Below, piece by piece: positions 1,877 to 41,863 of a stretch of DNA of 64,000 nucleotides. A program made the position numbers and the translations under genes. The stretch is from Cellulomonas sp. WB94. Lineage in GTDB: Bacteria; Actinomycetota; Actinomycetes; Actinomycetales; Cellulomonadaceae. The notes under the pieces were generated by a model. It was not told where the DNA came from and ran no database searches. It saw only the letters and a list, made by a program, of their open reading frames with translations. The DNA is taken from contig NZ_QEES01000002.1 of NCBI RefSeq assembly GCF_003115775.1, positions 868,001 through 932,000 of the forward strand, written 5' to 3'. Each line of letters begins with the position of its first letter. Position 1 is the stretch's first letter.

Positions 1877-3399
1877 GAGGCCCGCCCTCCGCTCGCGATG
1901 AGCTCGACGATGTCGTCGACGCCGACGTCCGAGTTCTCGATGTCGGCGATCTTGTGGTGGTCACGCAGGACCGCGACCCGGTGGCTGACCCGCAGGACCT
2001 CCTCGAGCTCCGAGGAGATGAACACCACGGACATGCCGTCCCGAGCCAGCTCGGTGACGAGCCGCTGGATCTCCGCCTTCGTGCCGACGTCGATGCCGCG
2101 GGTGGGCTCGTCGAGCACCAGGAGCTTGGGTGCGGTCGCGAGCCAGCGGGCGAGCAGGACCTTCTGCTGGTTGCCGCCCGACAGGTTCCGGGCGGGGATG
2201 TCGGGGTTCGGAGGCCGGATGTCGAGCGCAGCGATGTACTGCTGCACGATCTCCTCGGCGCGGCGCGCGGGGATGCGCCGGGTCCACCCGCGTTCGGCCT
2301 GCAGGCCGAGCAGGATGTTCTCGCGCATCGTGAGGTCCGCGACGATCCCCTCCGCCTTGCGGTCCTCCGAGGAGTACGCGATCTTGCGCGCGAGCGCCGA
2401 GCGCGGCGTGCGCAGGTGCACGACGGCGTCGCCCATGCGCGTCTGGCCGTGGTCCGGCCGGTCGGCGCCCGTGAGCAGGCGAGCGAGCTCGGTGCGGCCC
2501 GAGCCGAGCAGGCCCGCGAGCCCGACGACCTCCCCCGCGTACAGGTCGAGGTCGAACGGCTCGATGGCTCCGCGTCGGCCGAGGCCGATGGCCTGGAGGT
2601 ACGGGGTGGTGTGCGCGAGGGCCGCGACCGACTGCTTGGGTGCGTCCTCGAGCTCCTCGAGGACGGCGAGCGACGTGCCGATCATCTTCGAGATCAGGTC
2701 GAGCCGCGGCAGCGCGCTCGTGGCGTACTCGCCGACGAGCTGTCCGTTGCGCAGGACCGTCATGCGGTCGGAGATCTCGTAGACCTGCTCGAGGAAGTGG
2801 GAGACGAAGAGGATCGCGACGCCGCGGTCGCGCAGCGAGTGCATGACCGTGAACAGCTGCTCCACCTCGCCCGCGTCGAGGCTCGACGTCGGCTCGTCGA
2901 GGATGAGGACCTTGGCGTCGACGACCATGGCCCGGCAGATGGCCACGAGCTGCTGCACCGCGAGCGAGTGGGCGGACAGCGACGACCTCGGGTCGATCGT
3001 GAGGTTGAGGCGCGCGAGGTACGTCGCGGCCTCGGCCCTCGTGGCCCGCCAGTCGATCGAGCTCCCGCGCCGCGGCTCGTGGCCGAGCATGATGTTCTCC
3101 GCGACCGTGAGGTTGGCGCAGAGGTTGACCTCTTGGTAGACGGTGCTGATGCCGGCGGCCTGTGCGGCCGCGGGACCGGCGAAGGCCTGCTCGGTGCCGT
3201 CGACCACGATGGACCCGGAGTCGATCGTGTAGACGCCCGTGAGGGCCTTGATGAGCGTGGACTTGCCTGCGCCGTTCTCCCCCATGAGCGCATGGATCTC
3301 GCCGGGGCGGAGGGTGAAGTCGACGTTCTGGAGCGCCTTCACGCCGGGGAACTCGATCGAGATGGCGCGCATCTCGACGGCGGCGGGTGATTCGGTCAT
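1873..3399 (-). CDS. ytfR: Sugar ABC transporter double-domain ATPase, YtfR/AraV-like
   Basis: 508-residue ATPase with two tandem nucleotide-binding domains, as in RbsA/MglA/YtfR. Domain 1 has Walker [10 protein letters not shown] (about residue 40) and Walker [14 protein letters not shown]. Domain 2 has a degenerate P-loop (GLLGSGRTELAR) but an intact signature LSGGNQQKV and Walker [15 protein letters not shown]. This asymmetry is typical of the family, with one hydrolytically competent site. It energises the two downstream permeases. The gene follows the binding-protein gene after a gap of about 110 bp and overlaps the next gene by 4 bp. Confidence 0.92.
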   Translation of the reverse strand: MTESPAAVEMRAISIEFPGVKALQNVDFTLRPGEIHALMGENGAGKSTLIKALTGVYTIDSGSIVVDGTEQAFAGPAAAQAAGISTVYQEVNLCANLTVAENIMLGHEPRRGSSIDWRATRAEAATYLARLNLTIDPRSSLSAHSLAVQQLVAICRAMVVDAKVLILDEPTSSLDAGEVEQLFTVMHSLRDRGVAILFVSHFLEQVYEISDRMTVLRNGQLVGEYATSALPRLDLISKMIGTSLAVLEELEDAPKQSVAALAHTTPYLQAIGLGRRGAIEPFDLDLYAGEVVGLAGLLGSGRTELARLLTGADRPDHGQTRMGDAVVHLRTPRSALARKIAYSSEDRKAEGIVADLTMRENILLGLQAERGWTRRIPARRAEEIVQQYIAALDIRPPNPDIPARNLSGGNQQKVLLARWLATAPKLLVLDEPTRGIDVGTKAEIQRLVTELARDGMSVVFISSELEEVLRVSHRVAVLRDHHKIADIENSDVGVDDIVELIASGGRAS

Positions 3400-35709: not shown

Positions 35710-36120
<411 letters not shown>

Positions 36121-36903: not shown

Positions 36904-37680
36904 TCATGCGCTGCCCGCGTGCATCGCCCGAGACACCAGACGCCCCGTCCAGCGGCGGCCGCCGAGCAGCAGCAGCCCACCGATGACGGCCGAGGTGGTT
37001 CCCGCCCCGCCGCGCAGCACCACGCCCACCGGATCGGCCCCCAGCGCGAACCCGAGGCCGATCCCCAGGAACGGCAGCCAGCCGAGAAGCGTGGCGGTCG
37101 ACCTTGGCCCGGAGAGCGCGGCACGACGCTCGCCCTCGACCTCGTCGTCGGCGACGATCGACTCGGCCACCCGGTCGAGCACCGGCGCCAGCGGGGCACC
37201 CAGCGCTGCGGCCAGGCGTCCAGCGGCGACGACCGCCTCCGCGCGGCGTTCGAGAGCTGCCCGCCGGGGCGAGCGACCACCGGAGCGCGTGGCCGAGACG
37301 AACGGCACCCGGGCCAGCAGGGCCTCGGTGCGAGCGGCGAGCCGTCCGGAGCCGGGTTCACTGGTCGCCGCGAGGAGGTCGTCGACCGTGGGCACCCCGT
37401 CCGGCCCGACCGGGCAGCCCAGCACGGCGCGCCACGCCGACGCAGGCGGCTGACCGGAACGGAGCGCGGAGCTGACGGCTGTGACGGCGCCTGACAGCGA
37501 GGGGACCGAGGAGCCGTCCGGCTCTCCGGCGAACCCGCGGGGACGTCGCGTCCCGGCCCCGTCACGTCCGCCGCGTCGTAGCGCGGGCGGCCCGCCGGCC
37601 AGAGCCTCAGGGCTGCGGCCCCGCGGACCGAGCGCGCCGAGCGCAGCCGCCGCGACCAGGAGCCCGACGAGCGCGCTCAT
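36904..37680 (-). CDS. Type II secretion F / TadB-like membrane protein
   Basis: 258 residues from ATG 37680, overlapping the tadA stop by 4 bp. An N-terminal helix (SALVGLLVAAAALGAL) is followed by a T2SSF domain with VTAVSSALRSGQPPASAWRA and further membrane segments near the C-terminus (LLGWLPFLGIGLGFALG). Gene order tadA, tadB-like, tadC-like, pilin matches Rv3659c to Rv3656c of M. tuberculosis. Inner-membrane platform of the pilus machine. Confidence 0.84.
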   Translation of the reverse strand: MSALVGLLVAAAALGALGPRGRSPEALAGGPPALRRGGRDGAGTRRPRGFAGEPDGSSVPSLSGAVTAVSSALRSGQPPASAWRAVLGCPVGPDGVPTVDDLLAATSEPGSGRLAARTEALLARVPFVSATRSGGRSPRRAALERRAEAVVAAGRLAAALGAPLAPVLDRVAESIVADDEVEGERRAALSGPRSTATLLGWLPFLGIGLGFALGADPVGVVLRGGAGTTSAVIGGLLLLGGRRWTGRLVSRAMHAGSA

Positions 37681-38888
37681 GCGGCACCCAGCCCTATCCG
37701 CATCGCGAGTGCCGACCAGCCGGTCCCTCGCACCGGCAGCCCGCCGGCGGCGACCGTGACGGCCGCCTCGACGACGAGCTCCCCCGCGGGACCACGGCGC
37801 ACCACGGCGATCTCCGCGAGGTACCGGCGCGGGCCGTCGCGGCGCAGGTGCAGCACGGCGTCGAACGCACTCGCGGCCTGGGCGGCCACGGCCTCGCGGC
37901 CCATCCCGGCGAGGGACGCCAGTGCCTCGAGCCGGGCCGGGACGTCGGCGGCTGCGTTGGCGTGCAGGGTCGCGCACCCGCCCTCATGACCGGTGTTGAG
38001 TGCCGTGAGGACGTCCCGGACCTCGGCGCCGCGACACTCCCCCAGCACGATCCGGTCGGGCCGCATGCGCAGCGCCTGGCGGACGAGCTCCGCGAGCGGG
38101 ACCTCACCGGCGCCGTCGACGTTCGCCCGCCGGGCCAGCAGCCGCACGACGTGCGGGTGGTGCGGGGTGAGCTCGCCGGACTCCTCGATGCAGACGATGC
38201 GTTCGTCGTCCGGGACGACCGACAGCAGGGCGGACAGCAGCGTCGTCTTGCCCGAGCCGGTCGCCCCGGTGACGAGCAGGTTCGCGCGGGTCAGGACCAG
38301 CGCGCGCAGCACAGGCGCCAGGGCCGGCGCGACACCGCCGCTCGCGACCAGCTCGGCGAGCGTGAACGCCCGCCGCCGCAGCACCCGGAGCGAGATGAGC
38401 GCGCAGCCGTCGGCGACCGGCGGGAGGACCGCGTGGAGCCGCGTGCCGTCCGGCAGGCGTGCGTCGACTGTCGGGCTGGAGTCGTCGAGGCGCTGGCCAC
38501 CCGCGGCGGCGAGCCGGACCGCGAGCTCGCGGACCCGGGCAGGGGTGCCGAGGTCGACAGGGGCGCGCACCAGCCGCCCCGACCGTTCGACCCACACCTC
38601 GTCGGGCGCGTTCACCAGGACATCCGTGACGTCCGGATCCTCGAGCAGGACCTGCAACGGACCGGCCCCGAGCAGCTCGGCCCGGACCGCGACGTCGAGC
38701 TCCGCGAGCGCGCGGCTGCCGAGCATGACGCCGGAGGCCCGCACGGCAGCGGTGACGTCGGAGGACGTCGGGGCACCGCCGCGTCGAGCGAGCCGCGCCC
38801 GGACGTCGTCGACCAACGTCGCGTCGGGCGCGCCGACCGGGACCGCGCGCCGCGGGTCAGCCGCTCCCACCTGCCCGACGACCGTCAC
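37677..38888 (-). CDS. tadA: TadA-family secretion ATPase
   Basis: 403-residue type II/IV secretion ATPase. Walker A VTGATGSGKTTLLSALL (about residue 215), the Asp box IVCIEESGELTPHHPH, Walker B RPDRIVLGECRGAEV and the His box TGHEGGCATLHAN are all intact. It starts 4 bp inside the end of the CpaE-like gene. It powers assembly of the Flp/DUF4244 pilin and minor pilins encoded downstream. Confidence 0.94.
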   Translation of the reverse strand: MTVVGQVGAADPRRAVPVGAPDATLVDDVRARLARRGGAPTSSDVTAAVRASGVMLGSRALAELDVAVRAELLGAGPLQVLLEDPDVTDVLVNAPDEVWVERSGRLVRAPVDLGTPARVRELAVRLAAAGGQRLDDSSPTVDARLPDGTRLHAVLPPVADGCALISLRVLRRRAFTLAELVASGGVAPALAPVLRALVLTRANLLVTGATGSGKTTLLSALLSVVPDDERIVCIEESGELTPHHPHVVRLLARRANVDGAGEVPLAELVRQALRMRPDRIVLGECRGAEVRDVLTALNTGHEGGCATLHANAAADVPARLEALASLAGMGREAVAAQAASAFDAVLHLRRDGPRRYLAEIAVVRRGPAGELVVEAAVTVAAGGLPVRGTGWSALAMRIGLGAA

Positions 38889-39634
38889 GCGAGCGCCCCG
38901 GCCACGCGGGTCACGGCCCGCCCGAACGCGCCGCGCCGCACCGCCGGGCCGCCGCCGCGCTCGGCGTCCGACGCGAGCCTGCGGTCATGACGCATCGAGA
39001 CGGCGAGCGGCAGGTCGACGACGTGCGCCAGCTCGAGCGCCCCGAGCCCGCCGGGCGCAGGACCCCGCGCGACGAGCCGGACGTCGGCGACGAGCTCGAC
39101 CAGCGCGGGCCGCAGCGCCAGCGCACCTGCCACCGACCGCAGGTCGCGCGGCACGACGACGAGAACCGTCCGACAGCTCGCGAGCACCGCGCCCCGGTCG
39201 AGGACGTCGCACCGGTCGAGGTCCAGGACGACGGTGGGGTGCTCCTCGGCGACGGCCACGAGGACGTCGAGCAACGCACCCGGCGGCGGGGCACCGGGCC
39301 GCGTCCGGTCCGCGCTGAGCACGGCGCACCCGCCCCACCGGGGCAGCAGGGCAGCGAGCTCACGAGCGTCGACCGTCCCGCGGGCGTCCACGAGGTCGGG
39401 CCACCGGAGCCCTCCGGCGCCCTCGATCCCGACGACCACGTCGATCCCGCCGCCCGCACGCTCGAGGTCGACGAGGGCCGTCGCACCGGTCCGGGCGAAC
39501 CGGTGCGCCAGCGCCGCCGCCAACGTCGAGGCCCCGGCTCCACCGCGGGCACCGACGACACCGACGACACCGGCCCCTGTCCGCGCCGACGCGACCCCGC
39601 GCGTCCTCGCGCCCCGCACCGTCGTCCCGACCAT
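38885..39634 (-). CDS. CpaE/Ssd-like MinD-family protein (Rv3660c-like)
   Basis: 249 residues from ATG 39634, preceded by GGGGGAGG. It has a deviant Walker A GARGGAGASTLAAALAH, lacking the usual C-terminal Lys-Thr pair, and a switch segment TVVLDLDRCD. Mycobacterial Ssd (septum site determining protein, Rv3660c) and CpaE of Tad systems belong here. It is the promoter-proximal gene of the Tad cluster and probably localises the machine. At 249 residues it is shorter than Ssd (about 350), with the N-terminal receiver-like part missing. Confidence 0.82.
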   Translation of the reverse strand: MVGTTVRGARTRGVASARTGAGVVGVVGARGGAGASTLAAALAHRFARTGATALVDLERAGGGIDVVVGIEGAGGLRWPDLVDARGTVDARELAALLPRWGGCAVLSADRTRPGAPPPGALLDVLVAVAEEHPTVVLDLDRCDVLDRGAVLASCRTVLVVVPRDLRSVAGALALRPALVELVADVRLVARGPAPGGLGALELAHVVDLPLAVSMRHDRRLASDAERGGGPAVRRGAFGRAVTRVAGALA

Positions 39635-39844
39635 CGATGACCTCCCCCGTGGTGTGCCGGACCGACCGGAACCGACCCGCGCATGCTTGCCCGGACCCGC
39701 CCGAGCCGGCGGCGGCGGTCTGCCGACAGTGGAGGTGCGCACCCCCTGATTCGGCTGTGGGTGCGCCGCGGGATGTGCGGCGCGCGCGGAGCAGACCGCT
39801 GTCACCTCGGCCCGTTAGGCTCGGCGCGGGCAACGGAGGGGGCC

Positions 39845-40705
39845 ATGGCTACGCACCGATCGAGCGCACGCGGTGGCAGGCGCGCCCCCCGCGCGGCCGC
39901 GTTCTTCGACCTCGACAAGACGATCATCGCCACGTCGTCGGCCACCGCGTTCTCGCGCCCGTTCCTCGCGGGCGGGCTCCTGACGCGCCGCGCGATCCTG
40001 CGCTCGGCCTACGCCCAGCTGCTGTACCTCGTCGGCGGCGCGGACGCCGGCCAGACCGAGCGGCTGCGCGCGCAGCTCTCGCGGACCGTCACGGGCTGGG
40101 ACGTCGCGCAGGTGACGGAGATCGTCGAGCGGACGCTGCACGAGTCGATCGACGCCGCGGTCTACGCCGAGGCGGTCGCGCTCATCGAGGAGCACCACGC
40201 GGCGGGCCGCGACGTCGTGATCGTCTCCGCGTCGGGCAGCGACGTCGTGCGCCCCATCGCCGCCCTGCTGGGCGCCGACCAGGTCATCGCGTCCCACATG
40301 CAGGTCGTGGACGGGCGCTACACGGGCGAGATCGACTTCTACGCGTACGGCGAGAACAAGGCGGTCGCGATCCGCGAGCTCGCGACCCGGCTCGGCTACG
40401 ACCTCGCCGCGAGCTACGCGTACTCGGACTCGATCACCGACGCACCGATGCTGGCGGTCGTCGGGCACGCGTTCGCCGTCAACCCGGACCGTGCGCTGCG
40501 CCGGACGGCCGCCGACGAGGGCTGGGGGGTGCTCACGTTCGACCGGCCCGTCCTGCTCCGGGCGTTCCTGCGTCCCTCGACGCCGGTCGTGGTCGTCGCC
40601 AGCGGAGTGCTCGTCGTCGCTGTCGCGGTGCTCGCGTGGCGGCTCTCGCGGCGGAGACGATCCGTCCCGCCATCCGGACGTGCGTCCCGCCATCCGGCCG
40701 CATGA
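39845..40705 (+). CDS. HAD-superfamily phosphatase (SerB-like, Rv3661-like)
   Basis: 286 residues from ATG 39845, with GGAGGGGGCC upstream. HAD motif I is FFDLDKTIIATSS, motif II IVSASGSDVV and motif III YSDSITDAPML. It also has the C1 cap, and a C-terminal transmembrane helix (PVVVVASGVLVVAVAVLAW) followed by a basic tail. Actinobacterial relatives are annotated as phosphoserine-phosphatase-like or CicA-like; its mycobacterial homologue likewise flanks the Tad cluster. Substrate is unknown. Confidence 0.88.
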   Translation: MATHRSSARGGRRAPRAAAFFDLDKTIIATSSATAFSRPFLAGGLLTRRAILRSAYAQLLYLVGGADAGQTERLRAQLSRTVTGWDVAQVTEIVERTLHESIDAAVYAEAVALIEEHHAAGRDVVIVSASGSDVVRPIAALLGADQVIASHMQVVDGRYTGEIDFYAYGENKAVAIRELATRLGYDLAASYAYSDSITDAPMLAVVGHAFAVNPDRALRRTAADEGWGVLTFDRPVLLRAFLRPSTPVVVVASGVLVVAVAVLAWRLSRRRRSVPPSGRASRHPAA

Positions 40706-40739
40706 GCCCGCCCACCTGGACGGATGCCGGTTCCTCTTC

Positions 40740-40920
40740 CCATCGCGGCGAATCAGGCGTACCAAAGGTTCACAACTGGATGACCCGAGAGGACCCACGC
40801 GCGATGAGTCCACGCATAGGACTTGTCGACCGGGCTCGACCCGTCGCGACAACTGAGTTGCACGCTTGATACCCCTCGAGTCATTCGTTCGACAACGGCG
40901 CCCCGCAAGGGCGCCGTTGC
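40740..40920 (+). ncRNA. Candidate structured small RNA (Ms1/MTS2823 position)
   Basis: The 264-bp gap after the HAD gene has lower GC than its surroundings, no plausible reading frame and several stems. TTGTCG/CGACAA (40823-40852) encloses CGGG/CCCG, and a terminator-like hairpin lies at 40893-40919. In mycobacteria the abundant RNA-polymerase-binding RNA Ms1 (MTS2823) lies just downstream of the Rv3661 homologue. Synteny plus structure make a homologue plausible; no sequence match was tested and the 5' end is a guess. Confidence 0.4.
40893..40919 (+). terminator. Strong hairpin terminator
   Basis: Perfect 11-bp stem CAACGGCGCCC/GGGCGCCGTTG with a 5-nt loop, between the HAD gene and the convergent Fic-like gene. 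It could end the candidate small RNA or act in both directions. Confidence 0.7.
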
Positions 40921-40969
40921 TCGGTCCGGACCACCCCGGCGCCCACGAACGACCCGCGCCGGCCCCGAC

Positions 40970-41863
40970 TCAACGCGTCAGGCGCCCCGCCACCACCGCG
41001 TCGGCGACCTCCCCTGCGGCCTGGGCACCCGCGACCACGGCGTCCGCGTACGCCCGCACCCACGCACCCACACCCTCGGGCGTCCCGGTGGCGAACCCCG
41101 CCGCGGCGCCGAGGTAGGCGTTGGGCGCCTCGGCCCACGCCACCTCCGGCAGGAGCGAACCGGTCGGGTCCAGCCCCCGCGCGGTCAGGACGAGCCGGGC
41201 GACGGCCCGCGCGACGACGCCGTTGCCCGCGGCGAACGGTCGCAGCGCCAGCAGCTCGCCGTGCACGACCGCGGCCACCACGTGCGCCGGCGCACGCGTG
41301 CCGGCGAGAACCCGGGCCAGCAGGTCGATCCGCCCCGCGAGGTCGGCACCGTCGGGCGCGGGGCCGAGGCCGTACAGGTCCTGGGGTGCGGTGTCGGTGC
41401 GCAGCCGGCCGAGCGCGTCGTCGGGCAGCCAGCCCCGCCCGGCAGCGGCGTGCATGCGCGCCACGAGCTGCCCCAGGGGCGGTAGCACCGGGGCGCCGCG
41501 CGCGCCCAGGTCCGGCATGTGCCTCTCGACCTCGACCGCGGCCCGCAAGGCGCCCATGGCGACGTCGACGTCGGGCCCGGCTCGGCCCGCACCGGTCCCC
41601 CGGGTCGCGTCACCACCCAGCGCGAGCACGCGCACGACGTCGACCGGCACGCGCGCGCCGTCGAGCGCTGCGCTCGCGCGAGCGGAGCGGATCCCCGCCT
41701 CGGCCCGGACCTCGCGCCAGCGCCGACGGTAGGCCTCGTGCCAGCGCAGCTCCTCGCACGCCCGCCGCGCGGCGTCGACCGCGTCGGCCACGCCGGGCAG
41801 GGCGACGACACCGGCGAGCGGGTCGTCGGCGGCGACGGACCTCGGGGCTGCCGGCTCGAGCAC
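40970..41863 (-). CDS. Fic-family-like protein with divergent active-site motif
   Basis: 297 residues from GTG 41863, with TAGGGTGA upstream. Helical N-terminal half, then HGELLALRPFAAGNGVVARA, which aligns with the Fic motif HxFx(D/E)GNGRxxR. The catalytic His is replaced by Arg and the GNGR Arg by Val; the alternative His (HGEL) is upstream. AMPylation by the canonical mechanism therefore looks impaired. Related actinobacterial proteins are common single genes here. Divergent from malic enzyme and convergent with the candidate RNA. Function uncertain. Confidence 0.68.
   Translation of the reverse strand: MLEPAAPRSVAADDPLAGVVALPGVADAVDAARRACEELRWHEAYRRRWREVRAEAGIRSARASAALDGARVPVDVVRVLALGGDATRGTGAGRAGPDVDVAMGALRAAVEVERHMPDLGARGAPVLPPLGQLVARMHAAAGRGWLPDDALGRLRTDTAPQDLYGLGPAPDGADLAGRIDLLARVLAGTRAPAHVVAAVVHGELLALRPFAAGNGVVARAVARLVLTARGLDPTGSLLPEVAWAEAPNAYLGAAAGFATGTPEGVGAWVRAYADAVVAGAQAAGEVADAVVAGRLTR

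Follow-up and report, generated by a model that had tools for sequence, protein, structure and literature searches.

The analyzed window is a stretch of 64,000 nucleotides (nt) from Cellulomonas sp. WB94, whose 3.87-Mb genome is assembled in 7 contigs; all positions refer to this window. The minus strand of its Tad region carries genes for the ATPase TadA (37677-38888; TIGR03819) and for Ssd (38885-39805; TIGR03815), followed on the plus strand by a HAD-IB hydrolase gene (39845-40705; TIGR01490 with 185.7 bits against a cut-off of 98.3, and PF12710). Following PMC9130861, the latter is of the SCO3558/MSMEG_6173 type; its closest relatives among the matches listed came from Cellulomonas, Pengzhenrongella, and Cellulosimicrobium. 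A gap of 264 nt (40706-40969), below the 300 nt named for the Streptomyces search in PMC9130861, separates it from a convergent Fic-like gene on the minus strand (40970-41863; PF02661 with 21.2 bits, below the Pfam cut-off of 24). The detection of TadA, Ssd, and HAD-IB confirmed the synteny of the Tad-HAD block claimed in a preliminary description of this DNA, which had proposed an Ms1-like small RNA at 40740-40920. A Gly-Val repeat stretch (GVGVGV...) was also seen in a minus-strand ORF of the Tad region, at about 36040-36090.

The depressed GC content noted earlier for the gap was evident: 62.2% at 40740-40919 versus 69.4%-80.6% in the surrounding non-overlapping 180-base steps (39600-41759). 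ORFs of at least 60 amino acids do span the gap, but in the alignment the relatives are offset from one another by one- or two-base gaps, so that no reading frame is kept; in this sense, the earlier statement that the gap holds no convincing ORF is correct.

Promoter-like elements precede the conserved part of the gap on the plus strand. The -10-like element TACCAA (40760-40765) lies within GTACCAAAGG and was scored with a ten-base motif, GTACAAAGGA and its variants, which was derived from the upstream regions of 19 mycobacterial-type loci and is preceded there, as judged by eye, by CTTG; the score exceeded those of all 50 mononucleotide shuffles. The -35-like element TTCCCA (40737-40742), recognized by eye 17 nt ahead of the -10, was set beside CTTG(A/C) of the mycobacterial and Nocardioides loci. 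A sigma-70 consensus scan of the window locus found nothing. In the conserved -10 (TACAAA/TACCAA/TAGAAA), the final T of the usual hexamer is mostly missing, and GG often comes next. The ten-base motif was present at 49 of 66 other loci (at most 1 of 50 shuffles as good; about 2.6 loci expected by chance), a somewhat generous count, as a few passing loci (L038, L035) have it at odd distances. The 17 failing loci include several from Cellulomonas with TACGACAGG. The distance from the promoter motif to the conserved ACCCAC is 34 nt in the window versus about 87-101 nt at Streptomyces-type loci. Three RNA copies inverted relative to the HAD gene (L010, L066, and L072) retain the motif on their own side. 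Since these copies keep it and the neighbours vary across the loci found by the covariance model described below, the RNA is probably its own transcription unit.

Structure and covariation of the RNA

The RNA, about 150 nt long, was placed at about 40772-40921 on the plus strand and begins about 66 nt past the HAD stop codon, on the same strand. Its predicted 5' end (A40772 or the next base) was placed by analogy with matches to the Rfam Ms1 family RF02566, which start 7-8 bases past the -10, and its 3' end is approximate. The span given in the preliminary description thus shifts slightly, 40737-40765 being promoter-like. Two alignments were used, one of 28 sequences including the terminator-like hairpin, and A2, a 66-sequence core of closing stem, bubble, and apical hairpins. 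The closing stem, the bubble, and the hairpins recur in these alignments.

The arms of the closing stem P1 (40774-40792 and 40872-40889) pair with each other, and the bubble-side part has two-sided changes. The mean number of pairs in the whole stem is 15.4 in the 28 sequences but 4.6 once the arms are shuffled, and 15 of 560 shuffles did as well as the real arms. The 5' strand of the bubble, ACCCACGCG (40793-40801), contains ACCCAC in 66 of 66 rows of A2, a count on which the selection of these rows by a profile bears. It faces the 3' strand GCACGCUUGAUA (40860-40871), also conserved in A2, with ACCCAC opposite CGC-n-UG in most rows. Two apical hairpins follow, both on the plus strand. The short P3 (GUCC...GGAC, 40808-40822) is defined by A2 pair columns; columns 26-41 hold C-G in 42 rows, U-A in 23, and U-G in one, with none unpaired, and columns 25-42 are unpaired in 26 of 66. 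P4 (40823-40852) is the nested inverted repeat reported previously, visible directly in the letters. It shows two-sided change in the 28 sequences (one pair is U-A in 16 and C-G in 8), and its outer part is paired in only about 61%-75% of cells in the 66 rows. The strong hairpin noted at 40893-40919 is likewise real, an 11-bp perfect inverted repeat (40893-40903/40909-40919). It is G+C-rich and terminator-like, has no T run, and shows some two-sided changes in relatives; a scan for T-tract terminators found none. Three Cellulosimicrobium loci (L012, L017, and L024) have an insertion of about 20-30 nt in the apical part, and the promoter motif was unrecognized there.

The plus strand folds at -81.6 kcal/mol versus -69.0 for dinucleotide shuffles (z -3.0), better than 200 of 200. 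For the minus strand, z was -2.7, almost as extreme, and 2 of 200 shuffles folded at least as well. Pairing in the alignment gives no preference for the plus strand, with 86.5% of cells paired in the minus reading versus 81.5% in the plus reading. A.C cells number 128 versus 47 G.U cells, mainly owing to one C.A in the bubble stem that would be G.U on the opposite strand. At columns 15/129 of A2 (40800 and 40862), 43 of 66 rows show a mismatched C.A and 11 show U-A.

RNAalifold retained just 10 pairs (-6.5 kcal/mol) over the 66 rows, among them the bubble-side closing stem, three pairs of P3, and two of P4. In the closing stem, columns 2-144 are C-G in 27 rows and G-C in 26, and columns 3-143 are C-G in 23, A-U in 14, and G-C in 10. 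The stem inside the bubble, P2, has two possible registers. Register A is paired in 94.5% of cells with no two-sided change, and register B is paired in 76.4% with two-sided changes at 14-130, 15-129, and 16-128; columns 14-130, beside ACCCAC, are GC in 58 rows and AU in 8, with none unpaired. The two named structures had covariation scores of 0.262 and 0.272 versus 0.142 and 0.136 after shuffling, with 0 of 500 shuffles as high, and structures slid along the alignment scored at most 0.117. Two counts did not exceed the shuffles: that of pairs with two-sided change, reached by 276 and 129 of 500 shuffles, and that of further pair types, reached by 73 and 57 of 500. These are the measures graded by the tool as least prone to false signal.

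Distribution of the RNA in Actinomycetota

With 40740-40930 as the query, nhmmer was run against 84 downstream flanks of HAD genes, each no longer than 700 nt; 28 of them, the window's own included, gave a relative at E < 1e-4. One pass of a 28-sequence profile raised this number to 50 of 84 (E ≤ 1e-3 over at least 70 positions), with new members including Nocardioides, Embleya, and Streptomyces-type sequences, and iteration raised it to 66. The covariance model R1, trained on 66 sequences, none of them mycobacterial, and using register A of P2, added copies further downstream at L032, L054, and L080. No profile match of 70 positions was found in 588 kb of dinucleotide-shuffled sequence. The 523 kb of other locus sequence gave five matches, the three copies just named and two at E 1.6 and 7.9. 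The L080 copy (3016-3111, plus strand; R1 E 3e-7) comes from a MAG labelled Geodermatophilaceae, whereas six further loci from this family carry none; no Ms1 is reported for the family in PMC9130861.

At loci selected by the HAD protein alone, the RNA was present in 64 of 79, a set drawn from the best 80 of 473 HAD relatives and therefore biased toward close kin. The own locus, L002-L005 (fetched via the RNA region), and L074, which has no downstream sequence, were left out of this count. The 15 loci where no RNA was detected (L006, L030, L036, L041, L044, L047, L048, L049, L053, L059, L063, L064, L075, L079, and L084) include six of Geodermatophilus/Blastococcus/Modestobacter and four of Promicromonospora; L036 reached just E 0.23. 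The distance between the HAD gene and the RNA ranges from 9 to 201 nt (28 loci). The three inverted copies, all on the minus strand (L010:4319-4474, L066:4349-4445, and L072:1051-1149), belong to Cellulomonas sp. URHD0024, Nocardioides flavescens, and a Marmoricola MAG.

In the window's genome, R1 detected a single copy (E 1.5e-16). Five of the seven genomes of its genus, this one included, carry the RNA. The remaining two, G004 and G006, yielded no copy by DNA search or R1 (G006 only E 0.98), and the RNA may be lost, diverged, or outside the assembly there. Among 394 genomes of the class, 168 had an R1 match at E ≤ 0.01 under strict filters, with one copy per genome in the rows listed, save for G104 with two. 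All of the 30 best R1 loci, the own one included, have at least one expected neighbour, though none was used in the search: HAD in 15, Ssd in 14, a Fic-like gene in 26, and TadA in 2.

In a set of 396 genomes of the phylum, 19 had an R1 match at E ≤ 0.01, and four of these belong to classes other than Actinomycetes. The only strong match outside the class was G405 (E 1.8e-6). Its copy (L171:3002-3098, minus strand) directly follows TadA-T2SSF-TadE-Tad genes, with a patatin gene coming next, and no HAD, Ssd, or Fic-like relative was found within the 6.1 kb fetched. The predicted closing stem has 16 unbroken pairs, one of them G-U, and is unlike the window's stem in sequence; the bubble is the same, ACCCACGCG opposite GCGCGCAUGGUACC, and the fold has a z of -3.8. 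The RNA occurs in one of three genomes of this class, and the carrier is a fragmented assembly of about 250 contigs. The other three matches (G490, G625, and G730; E 0.002-0.007) lack all four neighbour proteins over about 6 kb and were discarded as chance-like.

Relation to mycobacterial Ms1 and alternative explanations

The preliminary description had suggested a search with the Rfam Ms1 model, and the result was negative: RF02566 had no match in the whole window, and none in the gap even at E ≤ 10. The family's gathering score (162 bits) was not reached, so the window RNA is not filed in RF02566. This negative result says little at such a distance, because two Streptomyces loci bearing the same RNA beside the HAD gene also lack a match. 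The RF02566 model is narrower than the published Ms1 class; according to PMC9130861, Rfam detects Ms1 only near mycobacteria, and BLAST sees no similarity between the Ms1 RNAs of S. coelicolor and M. smegmatis. Passages of PMC8467220 and PMC6582537 give no Rfam accession for Ms1.

A link to Ms1 proper was sought in genomes encoding PE-domain proteins, assigned to Mycobacteriaceae by inference and unused in model training; of 30 such genomes, 21 contributed their HAD locus, and G072, G088, G175, G185, G211, G246, G328, G335, and G351 were left out. RF02566 matched at gathering score in six of nine of these loci tested, downstream of the HAD gene and on its strand, and in no other locus among the sets of seven, nine, and six scanned with Rfam. 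All 21 loci contain ACCCACGCG(G/T)AG and GCACGCnTGGTA, 144-223 nt apart, and in 6 of 6 matched loci the RF02566 match encloses both strands of the bubble in the same orientation. Weak R1 matches covered at least one bubble strand in 19 of the 21 loci and both in 12, with a best E of 9e-4. Over the 21 whole genomes, it gave 45 matches at E ≤ 10; the best of the genome lay directly downstream of the HAD gene in five (G124, G155, G304, G359, and G389) and was elsewhere or missing in the other 16. A relative of the window's Fic-like protein was found by tblastn at 18 of the 21 loci. Other Rfam matches were below gathering score and set aside: CcsR1 and ar14 at Streptomyces loci, and sR53 near ssd in the window. 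The 6C RNA (RF01066) had no match in the window; it occurs upstream of HAD on the opposite strand at the Streptomyces loci L068 (3115-3192) and L040 (3193-3270) and at 9 of 9 Mycobacteriaceae-type loci tested.

The window RNA therefore shares sequence with studied Ms1 through the bubble strands (21 of 21 loci) and the promoter motif (49 of 66). Its locus has the arrangement of the class, with HAD-IB adjoining and CpaE/Ssd and Fic-type genes around, and it has the long hairpin with an internal bubble, subject to the reservations on pair statistics given above. From the promoter motif and the strand of RF02566 at the six loci, we infer that transcription would run in the HAD direction. Position, promoter motif, closing stem, and bubble together uphold the original proposal of an Ms1-like small RNA.

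6S RNA proper, a ligand of the primary-sigma holoenzyme and a template for product RNAs, resembles the window RNA in overall shape and in length. However, Rfam gives no 6S match at gathering score in the window and none at E ≤ 10 in the gap, and the bubble and the promoter motif are those of Ms1 loci. Moreover, S. coelicolor Ms1 binds the core and not HrdB (PMC9130861), although PMC11077062 reports a weaker stationary-phase HrdB enrichment; this identity is very unlikely. Still less likely is a functional RNA encoded on the minus strand; Bobek et al. 2021 (PMC8539372) proposed such an arrangement for the 6S-like scr3559 of S. coelicolor and described a transcript with that orientation. The good fold of the minus strand and the excess of A.C over G.U cells fit such a product, but the promoter motif is upstream of the plus-strand RNA and travels with the three inverted copies (a minus-strand promoter was sought by the sigma-70 consensus scan only), RF02566 is on the HAD strand in six loci, and 5'/3' RACE puts S. 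coelicolor Ms1 downstream of SCO3558 in the same direction (PMC9130861). Promoter position and published mapping thus favour the plus strand.

The invariant ACCCAC, predicted to be unpaired or weakly paired, could suit a trans-acting small RNA whose C-rich segment pairs with ribosome binding sites of mRNAs. This is as doubtful as a minus-strand product, given that ACCCAC is conserved jointly with the opposing strand in an internal loop, the neighbouring pair 14-130 changes on both sides, and the studied homologues act on RNA polymerase. The least credible of the alternatives is a structured 3' UTR in the HAD transcript with no independent RNA: the short distance from the HAD stop and the shared strand agree with it, but the RNA has its own promoter motif, lies at a variable distance from the HAD gene, and is inverted relative to it in three copies, and 15 of the 30 best R1 loci have no HAD gene in the fetched flanks, yet have Ssd or a Fic-like gene.

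Proposed role and comparison with known RNA polymerase-associated RNAs

The segment 40772-40921 of the plus strand is, with high probability, the gene of a compact Ms1-type RNA with its own promoter, ended by a G+C-rich hairpin, as judged from sequence. Transcription would start from the predicted promoter at 40737-40765 and end at this hairpin. By analogy with the Ms1 work in M. smegmatis and S. coelicolor, the RNA may accumulate in the stationary phase, resemble melted promoter DNA, and occupy the RNA polymerase core without the primary sigma factor, which could affect the polymerase level and help outgrowth. According to PMC4191392, Ms1 is a long hairpin with a bubble that is important for binding of the core polymerase, and the bubble and the adjacent stems are most conserved. 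Since the bubble strands are retained and the stems around them vary, we propose that these strands would make the contact with the polymerase.

Ms1 candidates are described for 824 species in PMC9130861, in genera including Cellulomonas, Actinotalea, and Oerskovia, and the words used there for flanking genes include Fic and CpaE. Outside the mycobacterial group, they so far rest on gene order and local BLAST. Ms1 in Cellulomonas is therefore already published as a synteny-based candidate, and the window RNA is an instance of the published class. The shared bubble motif, the shared promoter motif, the size of about 150 nt, and one candidate outside the class Actinomycetes are possibly new. A sequence motif of Ms1 common across groups was not found in print, the text of PMC9130861 included, in a survey of openly accessible article text.

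A broader reading, to which we give even odds, treats all Ms1 RNAs of the phylum Actinomycetota as homologous: they would have in common a bubble of fixed sequence (ACCCACGCG facing GCACGCnUGRUA), stems free to vary, and a single conserved promoter (CTTG, 17-18 nt, GTAnAAAGGA). On this view, the bubble would be a sequence-specific ligand of the actinobacterial core that predates the class Actinomycetes and is tied to the Tad locus, and the cellulomonad RNA, at about 150 nt, would come near the minimal functional unit. If the bubble and the promoter motif are shared, the candidates would be united as one family by homology, a search model independent of annotation would become available, and some twenty bases could be named for mutation to find out how RNA polymerase devoid of sigma is recognized by an RNA. 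Because of its small size, the cellulomonad RNA would lend itself to structural work.

6S RNA is similar to the window RNA in being a long hairpin with a central bubble and in length, but the bubble sequence here is of the Ms1 type and the window has no Rfam 6S match. The CoRP RNA of Corynebacterium (PMC11077062) is also an actinobacterial RNA polymerase-associated RNA; it differs in its length of about 500 nt, its location at tRNA genes, and in having close homologues only in Corynebacterium.

Mycobacterial Ms1 (RF02566; MTS2823) has the same upstream HAD gene, surrounding Ssd and Fic-like genes, strand, promoter motif, closing stem, and bubble strands (ACCCACGCG and GCACGCnUG). The window RNA is about half as long (about 150 nt versus about 304 nt in M. 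smegmatis), the starts of its bubble strands are 67 nt apart (40793 to 40860) rather than 144-223 nt, and it has UGAUA in place of UGGUA, besides lacking the RF02566 match. P3 and P4 sit apical to the bubble here; the two additional short hairpins of published Ms1 are described near the ends. S. coelicolor Ms1 (scr3559) has the same HAD neighbour, and the Streptomyces and Kitasatospora loci share the core and mostly the promoter motif, this comparison being with other Streptomyces-type loci and not S. coelicolor itself. The S. coelicolor RNA exceeds that of the window both in length, RACE having given 228 nt (PMC9130861), and in the extent of the 5' arm. The closest known counterparts are the Ms1 candidates of Cellulomonas, Actinotalea, and Oerskovia (PMC9130861, Table 4), from the same organism family and locus. 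They were obtained as intergenic regions from annotation words and BLAST, and the main-text parts of that paper give no motif, structure, or boundaries for them; the window RNA is presumably an orthologue of these Cellulomonas-group candidates.
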